64,000 nucleotides of DNA, from assembly GCF_022814725.1 (NCBI RefSeq), contig NZ_CP093442.1:1302001-1366000 (forward strand), given 5' to 3'. Below the pieces are notes generated by a model. The model worked only from the letters and a program-made list of their open reading frames with translations. It was not told the DNA's origin and made no database searches. A program made the translations under genes and the position numbers. Below are positions 31,782 to 38,605 of the stretch, piece after piece. Within the stretch, counting starts at the first letter, position 1. Each line of letters starts with the position of its first letter. The stretch comes from Bdellovibrio reynosensis (GTDB lineage: Bacteria > Bdellovibrionota > Bdellovibrionia > Bdellovibrionales > Bdellovibrionaceae).

Positions 31782-33425
31782 TTACCAAGCTACTGACGCT
31801 TGTTCATTCAGATAGAAAATCATCGCTTCGTAATTTTTTGTAACGGCGGCAGAATAGCCTTCCCAATTATCAAAATAGGAGATCGCCCAGGCATATCCAG
31901 CCAGTGCTTCGGCGCCAGCCTTGCCACCATTAGGATGTCTGCGCAGAACGGATTGTTCTAGTTCATCGATCTTTCTTTTCCAACAGCGATTATGGTCGCG
32001 ATTGTTTGGATTGCCCCCGCATTCATATAGAAATGAAGTGTAGCTTGTCGGAAAAGCCGCTTTGTAAATCGAAGTGCCTTTTAAGAAATTGGACATCGAT
32101 AAAACCGCTTTTTCATATTGGTAAATCACGCAAGCAATAACCAAAGCTTTTTTACGAATGCACATCCACGTCGTGTACGAATCATAATTGTCTTTAAATT
32201 GCTGCATACTTAAAGCGATGCCATCTTTAATGTTCTGAGCACCATTTTTTTCTCGGTCCACCCGTTGCAACATGTGATCGGTTGTTCTTTGCACAGCCAA
32301 GTGGAAAATTTGTTTAGCTTGTCCCATGTCAGTAAACTTGGTGGGAAATTCTTCTTGGGGCTTGGGTTGAGGCTGCGGCGCAGGCGGCTCTGGAACGCGA
32401 GACGACTTGACCAAATCCCACACATACCAGGCCAGTTCTTCACGCAAATGACTTACTTGCTGCATATACCTAGAGCCAGAATTTGCTTCTAAGTAAGCAA
32501 GTGCATAAGCCAAGGCTTCAAAAGCCTGTGATGCATATTTGCCGGCAGTTGGATTTTTAAGTTTGATTCTTTCTTCCAGTGCTTCAATTTCCTCGGTCCA
32601 ACAAGTATTAAAATTGTTTGCGCTCTGGTCATTGCATTTTTCCGATAGTGAGTCAGATGATGAATGCAAGCTTGCCAGCTCTTTATCGAGGTCATGTTTA
32701 TAGTGAATGGTTCTGAATAAATTCGCTAGCTTTCTTAATTGCTGAATTTCACACTGTTCGTTCGCTCGTCCATTTTGCTGGCAAATGGCGCGCGTGAAGG
32801 GAAAGAAGTTTTGAATGAATTTATCCATTTCTTCTTTGATGGTAGGGCTTAGATCAGCATCACGGTCCACAGCCGCAATCGCACATTCTGCCGCTTCCGC
32901 CGCCCAGGTTTTTAGAAGTTCCTGATTTTCAATCAATCCTTCTCGGTCTTCGTGTTCTTCCTCAACTTCCTGACCAAGACAATTTGTGGGCTGTATTGGT
33001 TCTGTAACTTCACTTTTCAGAAACTCTAAAGTACGAGTGCATTCTGAAATCTTTAAACAAGAATCCAAGTCCACCTGATAGCCACCAAGTTCTGCAAAGC
33101 CTTCAAAGCTAGCCTCGTTGTCCGTGTACATAATAACGTAATAATATTTATTAGCCACTCGGCCTTGATCAAATTCGATAAGAATTTCTACGCGTGAATC
33201 CGCAAATCCTTCTTTAGCAAGATCAAATTTATACCAGCCATACCCTTGCGCTGTTTTATTGGCACAGTCCCCGGTCCAAACTGATTTATCCGGACGTTGC
33301 CAAACTAATTCGGAAGGATGAAGGACCGTGCAACTTGTTGGTGGTTTTGGTGGTAGCGGTGGACTGCCGGCAAATCCTATTTGGGAAAAATTAAAAAACA
33401 AAACAAACAGGAAGAGTTTTTTCAT
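31782..33425 (-). CDS. Exported MORN-like protein with duplicated helical domain, paralogue of the 359-aa protein
   Basis: This 547-aa protein has a signal peptide (1-19). The N-terminal domain (about 30-140) with WTGDCANKTAQGYGWYKF is clearly homologous to that of the 359-aa protein. Two helical domains follow (about 165-345 and 365-547), separated by a short Pro-rich linker (PEPPAPQPQPKPQ). Each carries the same signature (NPTAGKYASQAFEALAYAL and HPNGGKAGAEALAGYAWAI). It overlaps the upstream trypsin-like gene by four bases (ATGA), so the two are translationally coupled. Function unknown. Confidence 0.8.
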   Translation of the reverse strand: MKKLFLFVLFFNFSQIGFAGSPPLPPKPPTSCTVLHPSELVWQRPDKSVWTGDCANKTAQGYGWYKFDLAKEGFADSRVEILIEFDQGRVANKYYYVIMYTDNEASFEGFAELGGYQVDLDSCLKISECTRTLEFLKSEVTEPIQPTNCLGQEVEEEHEDREGLIENQELLKTWAAEAAECAIAAVDRDADLSPTIKEEMDKFIQNFFPFTRAICQQNGRANEQCEIQQLRKLANLFRTIHYKHDLDKELASLHSSSDSLSEKCNDQSANNFNTCWTEEIEALEERIKLKNPTAGKYASQAFEALAYALAYLEANSGSRYMQQVSHLREELAWYVWDLVKSSRVPEPPAPQPQPKPQEEFPTKFTDMGQAKQIFHLAVQRTTDHMLQRVDREKNGAQNIKDGIALSMQQFKDNYDSYTTWMCIRKKALVIACVIYQYEKAVLSMSNFLKGTSIYKAAFPTSYTSFLYECGGNPNNRDHNRCWKRKIDELEQSVLRRHPNGGKAGAEALAGYAWAISYFDNWEGYSAAVTKNYEAMIFYLNEQASVAW

Positions 33426-34237
33426 AGGTTGGCTCCATTAACCAAATAGGGTTTATAAAAATCTTGAACTGAAAACAGGTTTAACGATTTATCCCAACCG
33501 TGAAAATCATCCTTAGTTACCGCTAAATTTGAAATGGCAATTCCACACAAATGCAAACGGCCGCCCTGCTTAATAAACAACGGTCCCCCTGAATCCCCAA
33601 AATAGAAACTATTAGTTGGGCTTCTTAGGGTATAAATGGCTTCTTTGTTGGCCTGATCTATTTTGACATCTAGTCTTTTTAAAACTGGTGAAGAGGAACC
33701 AGTTTTAGAAGTCGCACCATAACCAGCAGCGGTCACTGGCGCACCCAATTTTATAACTCCATACCAGTCGCTAACGATCGGCACAGGTCTAAATGAAGAC
33801 GGAATGTCTTCATCAAGTAAAACAACGGCAATATCATAGTTTTGCCTATTCTTTTTTTCTGGAAAGTACTTGGGATGAATAATGTGATGAGCCGCTTTAT
33901 ACCTAATAGCTTTATCTAAGCCTTCACTATTACGATTAAAGATGACGGATATATTTACTTTCGCATCTGCTCGGTCCTTATCAAAACAATGGGCCGCTGA
34001 TAGCAAAACTCTCGGGGCAATAAGAACTGCTGTACAGCTTCCCGATTTTAATTTTACTCCATCCGCTAGAATAGTTATGCCTAGTTTTACTGTATGAAGG
34101 GCAATTTCATCGTTTTCAGCAACGATAGATCCACCTATGATTCCATTCGGATTTTGATCTGAGACTGAATGCCTTGGCGACGGCGCACACGATGTTAGAA
34201 GAAAAGAAATTAAAAGCAGACTTATTAAATATCTCAA
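33422..34237 (-). CDS. Trypsin-like serine protease lipoprotein
   Basis: This 271-aa protein has a lipoprotein signal (LLTSC, Cys17). It is an S1-family protease: the activation-type IIGG (33-36) and the triad His83 (SAAHC), Asp135 (NYDIAV) and Ser216 (GDSGGP). It would act in the periplasm or at the outer membrane. The start is TTG, supported by GGAG at the right distance. The next gene, the 547-aa paralogue, begins in its last four bases; a chaperone, inhibitor or substrate relation is possible but unproven. Confidence 0.9.
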   Translation of the reverse strand: MRYLISLLLISFLLTSCAPSPRHSVSDQNPNGIIGGSIVAENDEIALHTVKLGITILADGVKLKSGSCTAVLIAPRVLLSAAHCFDKDRADAKVNISVIFNRNSEGLDKAIRYKAAHHIIHPKYFPEKKNRQNYDIAVVLLDEDIPSSFRPVPIVSDWYGVIKLGAPVTAAGYGATSKTGSSSPVLKRLDVKIDQANKEAIYTLRSPTNSFYFGDSGGPLFIKQGGRLHLCGIAISNLAVTKDDFHGWDKSLNLFSVQDFYKPYLVNGANL

Positions 34238-35319: not shown

Positions 35320-37842
35320 CTAAAGGCGTTTGACCCAGATCTGCAATTTGTCGTCGCTAGGAATTGAGATATCAGCTCTACAATTCTTAGTGGCTGTATC
35401 CGTAATAGTTTGAATATAGAAAGTTTTATTCGTCTGATCAGAAGCGTAAGAGAAAAAGCCTCTTAAGTGAACCACTTCATCTTCATAAGCTCCGTGAGTA
35501 CCGGAATGATTTGTACCATCCCAAAGGCGCCATCTGCAATAAACGCCGCCATCGACGGGATACATTGAGTACATAAAGACTGATACTTCGTAATCGCCAG
35601 CAGGCAAGCTTGCAAAGCGAATGGCGGGAATTTTTCCCTCTGTAGGTGCTGACGCTAAACCAGTCACAGTCGCTGCTGCGCAATCTGCATCGGCGGTCGT
35701 ATAGGAAGTGAAACTTGCAGGTGCAAGCTGCCACTGACAGTTCGTTGCTCCTAACATTGTGAGTGAACCCACTAAGGAATTTGTTGCAGGGATATTGGTG
35801 CTGCAGACAATCCCCGTTCCAGTTCCATCCGAAGTACACATTTTATTTGCCGTCATACCGGTAACGCCCAAGGTGGGAACGTTGCCAGAAGAACTACCGG
35901 TCGTTGCTACTGCGGCTGTTCCTAATCCTAAAGCCGTGCGAGCATTAGCAGCCGTTGTTGCCCCTGTTCCACCGTTGGCTATCGCTAAAACAGAAGTTCC
36001 AACAGTAGCAGCTAATGAAATGTCTAAGGACCCGAACGCCGGCGCACCACCACCAGCAGGAACGCGCAATACCTGGCTTGCTGTGCCTGCAGCCGTACTT
36101 ACTGGTGCGGCACCCGCGCCCCCGCCTAGCACCACTCCGTTTGCTGCCAGTGCTGCTGAAGACGCCATGGTTGTTCCAGAATCAAAATAAGGAATACCAC
36201 CGCTTGTGCCTGAAGTTAACCCAGTGCCACCTTTAGCAACCGTTGCTGTTGGAAGTAATGTGGCTGAAACAGTACCGGAAGAGAGGTTACTTGCATTTAA
36301 ACTTGTTAACGCGGAACCATCGACGGCCGGAAGTTTTGAATCCGCACCCAGCTTCACGATCTGATTCGCACCCGTTCCGGTATTTACATTTGCTACACCA
36401 GAAGCAATCGTGATTCCAGACACAGCAGCACTGGTATCAAATCTTAAAATACCTTTTGTCGCATAACTTGCATCGCTAGGTGCTGCACCCGTCGAGTCTG
36501 CTGAACAGTCCCAAGTTTTAGCCGTGTTATTCCATTTTAAAATTTGTCCATCAGCGCATGCCGAAGTACTTGCAGCCACTGTTTGTTTTGCAGTGCCATC
36601 GTAAAAACGCACGGCTTTCATATCAGAGTTATACCAGCTTAAACCTTTGTGACCCGCAGCAAGCACAAGGGCATCTTCTTGAACTTGAGTTAAATTTCCT
36701 AGCAATAAAGTTTTGCCTGAACTCATGGTGATATGGCCTGAAGCTAGGATATCTTCGCTTCCCATATTCAAATCACCAGTCATCGTGCCGCCAGCAAGCG
36801 GAAGTTTTGGCGCCGCTGTATCAGCAGAACTGATACGAGCATCCACTGCTGTGTTGAAATCAGACATCTGGCTTGCGGTCACACTGATATTAGAACAAAC
36901 GAAAGTGTCACTCGCCGATTGCCAGATTAATACTTGGCTTGTTGTACATTGAAGCAAACTGCTCATTTGCAGTCGATCATCTAAAGCGGTTTGTAAGCCT
37001 GTTGTTTGCGAAATTGGTAAAGAAGCTACACTCAATAAGCCTGCTACCGTGACTGATAGACCGGAACCAATTTGCACAATACCTGTTGAAGTCGTTGTCG
37101 CAACTGCCACAGCTCCACCCGTGTCCGTCACACAAGAAAAACTTGTGCCATTGGATTTTAAGACTTCTCCGGCAGCACAGGTTGGTAAGGCATTTTTAGC
37201 GAAGGTTTGAACTGTGGGATCATCTTCATTATTTGGAACTTCAGTTGCAAGATCAGTTAGTTTTGCATAGTTCGCAGCTGCGACACCACCAAGTTTATCG
37301 GCGTCTTTTGCTTTGGCTGCTTCTTGCGCCACCATCGCATACGGCACCGTGCCGACTTGATAGTAAGGTAAAATTGCTCGGGCTCCACCTGTTCCCGTAT
37401 CAAAGATTATTTTTACTTTGCGAATATCGCCAGCCGCCGGAGTATAACTTCCAGAGCACACGGTTGATTCAGAACCTTGGTGAGCTGACTGTAAAGCATT
37501 TACTGTTGCTGAAGAATTAGAAAATACCTTAAGCAAGTTTTCGCGGGATTGTTCTTGCCCTGCAGCCGCATAAACGTTCACTGCTGCTGTACCAGTGCCG
37601 ACTGAAATAGAAAAAACACCCTCTGACGTTGAAAGGTCTTTTCCTAAATGTTGTTCTTCATACAATAAACAGTTGTCAGAGCTAAGGATTTGAACTTTGA
37701 AGTCTACGTTTGCTGCTGCTAATGGTAGGTCGCTAGAGTTATCTAAAATTCTTCCAGAAATATGAACTGACTTGGGACCTTCCGCATAAGCGATGGTGGC
37801 CATCAGTAAACCGAACATAAGTATGCTATATCTCAACGTCAT
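35320..37842 (-). CDS. Phage-tail-fibre-like secreted protein (MAT-type prey-recognition fibre candidate)
   Basis: This 840-aa protein has a signal peptide (1-20, AYAEGP). Residues 25-190 form a beta-sandwich-like head with the Bdellovibrio-typical strand YQVGTVPYAMVAQEAAKA. A long low-complexity shaft follows, with phage-fibre-like repeats (TVAKGGTGLTSG, LAIANGGTGATTAANAR). The last 150 residues form a distinct, Cys- and Trp-containing globular tip (from about GATNCQWQL to the C-terminus). This head-shaft-tip order is what is known of the mosaic adhesive trimer fibres that B. bacteriovorus uses to bind prey; assignment here is by resemblance. Seven bases upstream lies a small lipoprotein gene, in an operon. 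Confidence 0.82.
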   Translation of the reverse strand: MTLRYSILMFGLLMATIAYAEGPKSVHISGRILDNSSDLPLAAANVDFKVQILSSDNCLLYEEQHLGKDLSTSEGVFSISVGTGTAAVNVYAAAGQEQSRENLLKVFSNSSATVNALQSAHQGSESTVCSGSYTPAAGDIRKVKIIFDTGTGGARAILPYYQVGTVPYAMVAQEAAKAKDADKLGGVAAANYAKLTDLATEVPNNEDDPTVQTFAKNALPTCAAGEVLKSNGTSFSCVTDTGGAVAVATTTSTGIVQIGSGLSVTVAGLLSVASLPISQTTGLQTALDDRLQMSSLLQCTTSQVLIWQSASDTFVCSNISVTASQMSDFNTAVDARISSADTAAPKLPLAGGTMTGDLNMGSEDILASGHITMSSGKTLLLGNLTQVQEDALVLAAGHKGLSWYNSDMKAVRFYDGTAKQTVAASTSACADGQILKWNNTAKTWDCSADSTGAAPSDASYATKGILRFDTSAAVSGITIASGVANVNTGTGANQIVKLGADSKLPAVDGSALTSLNASNLSSGTVSATLLPTATVAKGGTGLTSGTSGGIPYFDSGTTMASSAALAANGVVLGGGAGAAPVSTAAGTASQVLRVPAGGGAPAFGSLDISLAATVGTSVLAIANGGTGATTAANARTALGLGTAAVATTGSSSGNVPTLGVTGMTANKMCTSDGTGTGIVCSTNIPATNSLVGSLTMLGATNCQWQLAPASFTSYTTADADCAAATVTGLASAPTEGKIPAIRFASLPAGDYEVSVFMYSMYPVDGGVYCRWRLWDGTNHSGTHGAYEDEVVHLRGFFSYASDQTNKTFYIQTITDTATKNCRADISIPSDDKLQIWVKRL

Positions 37843-37849
37843 AACAGCC

Positions 37850-38125
37850 TCACATCACTTGGTAACGAATATTTAGTTCCGCGCGATACGCTCCGTCTTG
37901 AGATTGAGCTTGTTCAGAGGATGTGATTTCTCCCACGACTCCTTCAACTCTGTATTGTCCTGATTGATCCTGTGCTTGAATTTGATTCGAAGGGGAAATA
38001 GTGGCTTTTCCCTTTGCCGCAATCAAGGGTGCGACCGTTTCTTCTAAAGAAACTATCGACGCTTCCAACGAGCAGCCCGCAAGAATTCCCGACAGAATAA
38101 AAACAAAACACATTCTCAAGCGCAT
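37850..38125 (-). CDS. Small lipoprotein, operon partner of the fibre gene
   Basis: This 91-aa protein has a lipoprotein signal (GILAGCS, Cys18). The mature part has an internal repeat: QAQDQSGQYRVEG and QAQSQDGAYRAEL, the second ending in a strand NIRYQV. It precedes the fibre gene by only seven bases. A role in anchoring or exporting the fibre is a natural guess, without direct evidence. A second ATG four codons in is also possible. Confidence 0.72.
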   Translation of the reverse strand: MRLRMCFVFILSGILAGCSLEASIVSLEETVAPLIAAKGKATISPSNQIQAQDQSGQYRVEGVVGEITSSEQAQSQDGAYRAELNIRYQVM

Positions 38126-38245: not shown

Positions 38246-38605
38246 CTAATCGGCTTTTCGTGACCACGGCCAGCGGCCTTCGATTTCCACTTCTAAAGAG
38301 AAGCTTAAGAACGTTCTGATGATAACAATAAGCGCGAGCACACCCAGCGATATAAAGGTGGGCTCTACGGCGACGGTACCGATGATATCCCCTGCCACGA
38401 GGAATTCTAATCCCAGCAAAATCGCTTTACCTAAAGAGCTTCGTAAATTTTCGTAGGCGTGTGGGTTCTTTGCAAAGTGTTCGCGAACATAATTCACAGT
38501 GGCGATAAGGCCGCCAATGACAATGACTAATACTCCCCACACTTCTATCACTTTAGCGAGGACATCGAGATTATGATTTATCGTAGAAAGTAGTGGCGAC
38601 TCCAT
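38246..38605 (-). CDS. DUF1622 membrane protein
   Basis: This 119-aa inner-membrane protein has three hydrophobic helices (about 17-40, 57-80 and 85-103). VIVIGGLIATVNYVRE, SLGKAILLGLEFLVAGDIIGTV and IRTFLSFSLEVEIEG are all close to the DUF1622 family pattern. Function is unknown. It is a single gene. Confidence 0.85.
   Translation of the reverse strand: MESPLLSTINHNLDVLAKVIEVWGVLVIVIGGLIATVNYVREHFAKNPHAYENLRSSLGKAILLGLEFLVAGDIIGTVAVEPTFISLGVLALIVIIRTFLSFSLEVEIEGRWPWSRKAD

Follow-up and report, generated by a model that had tools for sequence, protein, structure and literature searches.

A family of small lipoproteins, provisionally new on the searchable literature, is encoded directly upstream of mosaic adhesive trimer (MAT) genes with divergent heads in Bdellovibrio. 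The lipoprotein and its MAT very probably form a functional unit, and on the basis of head-tracking sequence divergence and an AlphaFold model the lipoprotein would, with modest confidence, be the anchor of the MAT head. We propose more tentatively that this family fixes MATs to the outer membrane by strand donation, in cis for divergent heads and through a common subclass, class b, for canonical ones. MATs are known prey-recognition fibres of Bdellovibrio, and a dedicated lipoprotein supplies a named, deletable candidate for their anchor. The authors who described MATs wrote that what the N-terminal domain binds on the predator surface had yet to be identified (Caulton et al., 2024; PMC10769870).

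Results

The window analysed here is a 64,000-nucleotide stretch of the Bdellovibrio reynosensis genome (contig NZ_CP093442.1, positions 1,302,001 to 1,366,000), in which two minus-strand open reading frames of 840 and 91 aa were found as the initial annotation had described them (Table 1). On its sequence, the 840-aa protein is a MAT and the orthologue of B. bacteriovorus Bd2734; it aligns over 835 aa at 77% identity with a MAT of 843 aa in genome G006, which we take, in part from the tip sequence, to be that of strain HD100. The published length of Bd2734 is 843 aa, and its residues 691-843 make up PDB entry 8OKW (PMC10769870), which lists three chains. Bdello_MAT_N (NCBIfam NF053851, cutoff 60 bits), a beta-rich head domain present in none of 14 control genomes, matches the window fibre at aa 11-195 with 144.1 bits, and shaft residues 616-667 match the tail fiber protein family PHROG 10316 (E 2.4e-8). 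Together with the GGTG motifs of the shaft and the 8okw-like tip, these matches bear out the earlier identification of a mosaic adhesive trimer fibre of the B. bacteriovorus type. As the orthologue of a characterised MAT, the fibre is thus already known and not new. A Pfam search found no domain in either the lipoprotein or the fibre, and no autotransporter barrel in the latter.

Table 1. Features of the lipoprotein-fibre gene pair, in window coordinates
Feature	Position	Strand	Basis
Lipoprotein gene, 91 aa	37850..38125	-	Signal peptide, lipobox LAGC, mature CSLEASIVSL...; ORF list; profile A1, 105 bits in own genome
Lipobox cysteine Cys18, family-invariant	38072..38074	-	Family alignment A1
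Strand repeat copy 1, aa 50-64, QAQDQSGQYRVEGVV	37934..37978	-	Internal-repeat analysis
Strand repeat copy 2, aa 72-86, QAQSQDGAYRAELNI	37868..37912	-	Internal-repeat analysis
GAGG, Shine-Dalgarno-like motif of fibre gene	37848..37851	-	Sequence; overlaps lipoprotein TGA stop
MAT fibre gene, 840 aa, Bd2734 orthologue (77% identity)	35320..37842	-	Bdello_MAT_N, 8okw tip, whole-protein alignment
Fibre signal peptide, aa 1-20	37783..37842	-	Sequence
MAT head (Bdello_MAT_N), aa 11-195, divergent subtype	37258..37812	-	NF053851, 144 bits; 148 bits in genome search
Shaft, aa 196-686, low complexity, GGTG tail-fibre motifs	35785..37257	-	PHROG match at 35842-35997
TNF/C1q-like adhesive tip, aa 687-840	35323..35784	-	phmmer to 8okw, E 2.4e-65

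The Bd2734 tip crystallised as a trimer, and by analogy the window fibre, 77% identical to Bd2734 as a whole, would be homotrimeric; judging from published MATs, prey specificity plausibly resides in the tip. In HD100, every tagged MAT that was examined was displayed on the predator surface; deletion of bd2734 slowed predation on E. coli, and bd2734 and bd2740 were the two HD100 MATs whose loss did so (PMC10769870). MAT heads were found in 44 of the 66 genera of the order, own genus counted, and a genome-contig scan with MAT-head alignment A4 gave 7 loci. Two head cysteines (window fibre residues about 58 and 129) are invariant in 23/23 aligned heads (alignment A2) and likely form a disulphide. 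As for a prophage origin of the pair, neither protein was matched in 50,697 phage records and the sole viral-contig match was weak, and this origin was rejected.

The lipoprotein gene ends, rather than starts as initially annotated, seven bases upstream of the fibre ATG on the same strand. The junction reads ATG TGA GGC TGT T ATG, with the two genes in different reading frames; because the TGA stop of the lipoprotein gene overlaps the GAGG before the fibre ATG, the two are very likely co-translated, and translational coupling is the likely reading of this arrangement. In close relatives, the lipoprotein and MAT genes overlap by 4 nt (ATGA). The nearest upstream neighbour of the lipoprotein gene, 120 bp away and also on the minus strand, encodes a DUF1622 membrane protein (38246-38605, -; Pfam E 4e-27). 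Elsewhere in the window, a trypsin-like lipoprotein gene (33422-34237, -; Pfam PF00089, E 1e-18) precedes and overlaps the start of a gene for a 547-aa protein with no Pfam match (31782-33425, -), making a second lipoprotein-first pair that is unrelated to MATs.

Alignment and profile A1, built from 24 lipoproteins, have an invariant lipobox cysteine and a conserved mature start CSxEASI/L (CSLEASI in the window protein), which loosens to C-S-x-E/D-A-x-I/L in the family; mature chains are mostly about 65-80 residues long and carry a strand motif, TxxGYxVxSxV, around an invariant Tyr, usually in two copies. The internal repeat initially reported for the window lipoprotein is present, but the QAQ by which it was recognised is only the beginning of a longer two-copy unit (aa 50-64 and 72-86), whose copies are identical at 8/15 positions (z = 5.9 vs shuffles). 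Across 51 paired lipoproteins, the median z of the internal repeat is 2.3, with z > 3 in 35%, and the motif is visible in most. Profile A1 recovered about 85 credible lipoproteins in 24 Bdellovibrio genomes, and a direct search of 40 related genomes placed relatives of the window lipoprotein within the genus; it is 55% identical to the lipoprotein encoded before the Bd2734 gene in G006. No relative was found at a meaningful level in Pfam, NCBIfam or PDB, and phmmer, a sequence search, gave no match at E<=10 against all PDB chains. Bd2735, Bd2739 and Bd2440, our guesses at the numbers of the HD100 genes neighbouring paired MATs, are named in no paper found, and no title or abstract among the MAT papers found ties a lipoprotein to MATs, both within a search of openly accessible journal articles. 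The word lipoprotein is absent from the main text of Caulton et al. (PMC10769870).

MAT neighbourhoods of the A1 lipoproteins were fetched, heads were located by HMM, and 22 class b members were set aside. In the 24 Bdellovibrio genomes, 51 of the 62 remaining lipoproteins are encoded directly upstream of a same-strand MAT gene; of the other 11, several are found where a contig ends or immediately following a MAT, and one (L028) stands apart from MATs, before a trpS-like gene. The initial annotation had called the pair fixed, had proposed looking for the family beside other Bdellovibrio fibre genes, and had named wide occurrence away from such genes as evidence against it; these counts reveal a module that recurs across the genus and a family that for the most part adjoins MATs. 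A few MATs in other genera of the order (e.g. L201, L209 and L226) also have similar upstream lipoproteins. For background, a lipobox open reading frame lies directly upstream of 1/45 other window ORFs of at least 150 aa, and the pair stands clearly above what chance would give.

Pairing is all but restricted to divergent heads. The genome of the window encodes 20 MATs. A lipoprotein lies directly upstream of the five whose heads score lowest (in one case a distinct protein of 187 aa) and of none of the other 15, a lipobox scan upstream of those 15 returning 0/15 and a like scan of 20 canonical MATs sampled elsewhere 0/20. By coordinates in 15 genomes, an A1 lipoprotein is upstream of 35/76 divergent-head MATs vs 1/142 canonical-head MATs, with divergent defined as below 190 bits, a cut picked after the distribution was seen; Fisher p (4e-18) is descriptive here, since MATs are related to one another. 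About half of divergent-head MATs lack an A1 profile match, and a lipobox scan of 40 such loci that were fetched found a lipoprotein in 13, mostly of the 187-aa class, and in three more with a slightly looser filter.

Short MATs of ~600-690 aa (Bd2872-like; L120-L125 and L017) have no upstream lipoprotein, and beside them lies an opposite-strand gene of ~210-240 aa that weakly matched the beginning of the lipoprotein profile. Candidates for a lipoprotein-MAT fusion (Rosetta stone) were rejected: the 854-aa lipobox ORFs concerned (L101 4529-7093, L102 4204-6768) encode a different lipoprotein that follows a canonical MAT gene unfused, with sialidase/BNR-like repeats by eye.

The genes before Bd2734 and Bd2740 in HD100 both encode lipoproteins of the MAT-paired family, so that the anchor question can be tested directly on those HD100 MATs whose loss affects predation. 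Bd2439 is probably also lipoprotein-paired, by position and length, and its deletion gave no predation defect on E. coli (PMC10769870); we claim no causal link between lipoprotein pairing and predation phenotype.

Class b, a highly conserved subclass (VSGSTQTG...YKVYSSVQGAIVSN), was found at > 100 bits in 20/24 genomes, namely in 20/21 genomes with canonical heads vs 0/3 without (p 0.002, shared ancestry uncorrected). It follows a MAT gene in several genomes, and in three loci it lies directly upstream of one. Directly after class b in most genomes is a conserved protein without a Pfam match (VDVRRNITLAEDD..., L183 1818-2687, +), possibly part of the same surface system. The sole canonical-head genome without class b is that of the window itself: class b was looked for in its cluster and not found, the corresponding place holding simple-repeat sequence. 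Where other genomes carry class b, this one has long simple repeats and a 352-aa ORF (L180 4890-7313; G000:C1 about 3168890-3171313). Its 15 partnerless MATs, of which 13 have canonical heads (208 bits or more), must therefore be held otherwise or by another lipoprotein, an exception that sets bounds to a general role of class b for canonical heads.

Among 26 pairs with complete MATs, lipoprotein distance follows MAT head distance (Mantel rho 0.66, p 0.0005; 0.66 also as a partial correlation given the tip) and not tip distance (rho 0.08), and head and tip distances across paired MATs are nearly unrelated (rho 0.11), as befits a discrete tip that can be exchanged between heads. The C-terminal ends of paired MATs are, by eye, S74-like coiled coils, TNF-like or C-type-lectin-like, an S74 end being confirmed by Pfam in one. 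Divergence that follows the head and not the tip argues for a role of the lipoprotein at the fibre base. The head correlation could also come from linkage alone, because it is at its head-coding end that the MAT gene borders the lipoprotein gene, and tip swapping alone would then give the same head-not-tip pattern.

AlphaFold was run on a natural in-frame pair from a Bdellovibrio MAG (L117), with the stop read through, as one fused chain with ten alignment rows. The head was predicted at pLDDT about 80-93 in most blocks, and within the lipoprotein residues 31-50, which hold the first strand motif and correspond to window strand repeat copy 1, reached 79/69 with the rest at <= 40; the lipoprotein alone, from the same three sequences (3 alignment rows), stayed at about 40 throughout. 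Nearly all top rows of the structural matches describe one Ig-like sandwich extending from model residues 37-40 to about 243. Since the head begins only near residue 108, a lipoprotein strand would fill a position of that sandwich, and the lipoprotein hairpin apparently sits within it. Fused chains may pack together artefactually in AlphaFold, and this one pair is suggestive of lipoprotein-head contact. A Foldseek search against PDB returned nothing below E 0.001, and on the VIA matches, which are to generic Ig-like domains (Z < 8), we base no family assignment.

Discussion

In the mechanism that we propose, the lipoprotein and fibre genes would act as one translationally coupled module, and the lipoprotein would be exported, lipidated on Cys18 and kept in the outer membrane. 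The Ig-like beta-sandwich of the MAT head would be completed by the short strand motif of the lipoprotein, and the completed head would peg the trimeric fibre to the membrane with the tip facing prey. Divergent heads would each have a dedicated lipoprotein in cis, and canonical heads would all depend on a common class b lipoprotein whose gene lies close to a MAT cluster. The MAT identity, the pairing and its bias to divergent heads, the co-occurrence of class b with canonical heads and the head-tracking divergence are computed results. That the lipoprotein is lipidated, sits in the outer membrane and anchors the head, and that the head is exposed at the surface, is inferred from general knowledge, and strand donation in detail, taken from one structure prediction, is a tentative suggestion. 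If the mechanism is true, a rule by which head type decides the lipoprotein and the tip decides prey would explain how tips are freely swapped with the mounting kept; it would also be a new way to mount a trimeric adhesin and would reveal which surface component the MAT head binds.

A rather unlikely alternative is that the lipoprotein is a biogenesis helper, a periplasmic protein that guides MAT trimerisation or export and is absent from the finished fibre, so that it could act in export across the outer membrane rather than in anchoring. A precedent is SadB, an inner-membrane lipoprotein for the trimeric autotransporter SadA (PMC3953254), and both a tightly coupled small upstream gene and a fibre in which Pfam finds no autotransporter barrel would suit such a chaperone. 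SadB, however, is trimeric and MATH-like, whereas mature proteins of this family mostly run to about 65-80 residues and carry short strand repeats, and phmmer matched no PDB chain at E<=10; a dedicated variant for each head subtype is more readily explained by a lasting partner than by a general-purpose helper, and the model would put the strand in the folded head.

Less likely still, the lipoprotein may be an independent envelope or surface protein that is co-inherited and co-expressed with the fibre and makes no physical contact with it. The 11/62 non-class-b members apart from MAT genes, such as L028, and a head correlation obtainable from linkage alone would agree with this, but the pair turns up at numerous loci, other genera of the order included (L201, L209, L226), with divergent heads and hardly ever with canonical ones, and the modelled strand is ordered only with the head present. 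A role in folding or modulating the adhesive tip or prey specificity, for which joint encoding with the fibre might speak, is largely contradicted and very improbable, since lipoprotein divergence is unrelated to the tip (rho 0.08, partial 0.01) and paired MATs carry several tip types.

Under the favoured reading of the lipoprotein as head anchor, several known systems offer comparisons. Bd2734 of HD100 (PDB 8OKW) has the same head, shaft and TNF-like tip as the window fibre, with no essential difference between the fibres. SadA/SadB of enterobacteria is alike in that a small lipoprotein is encoded beside a trimeric adhesin, and unlike in that SadB is an inner-membrane, MATH-like trimer serving a trimeric autotransporter, whereas the search of the MAT turned up no barrel and the present lipoproteins are shorter strand-repeat proteins; a sequence search of the window lipoprotein against all PDB chains (phmmer) gave no match at E<=10. 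In Fusobacterium, FAD-I is described as a small lipoprotein in the operon of the large adhesin RadD (PMC7023056). RadD is not a MAT fibre. Type V fimbriae join an adhesive fibre to an anchor subunit and are built by donor-strand completion of Ig-like domains. In Porphyromonas gingivalis fimbriae the anchor subunit is Mfa2 (PMC5954841). Donor-strand fimbriae, both chaperone-usher and type V, serve as an analogy only, as MATs are trimers of single chains in published structures: a type V fimbria is a polymer of lipoprotein subunits, whereas a MAT would consist of three long chains held down by a distinct lipoprotein of 70 residues.
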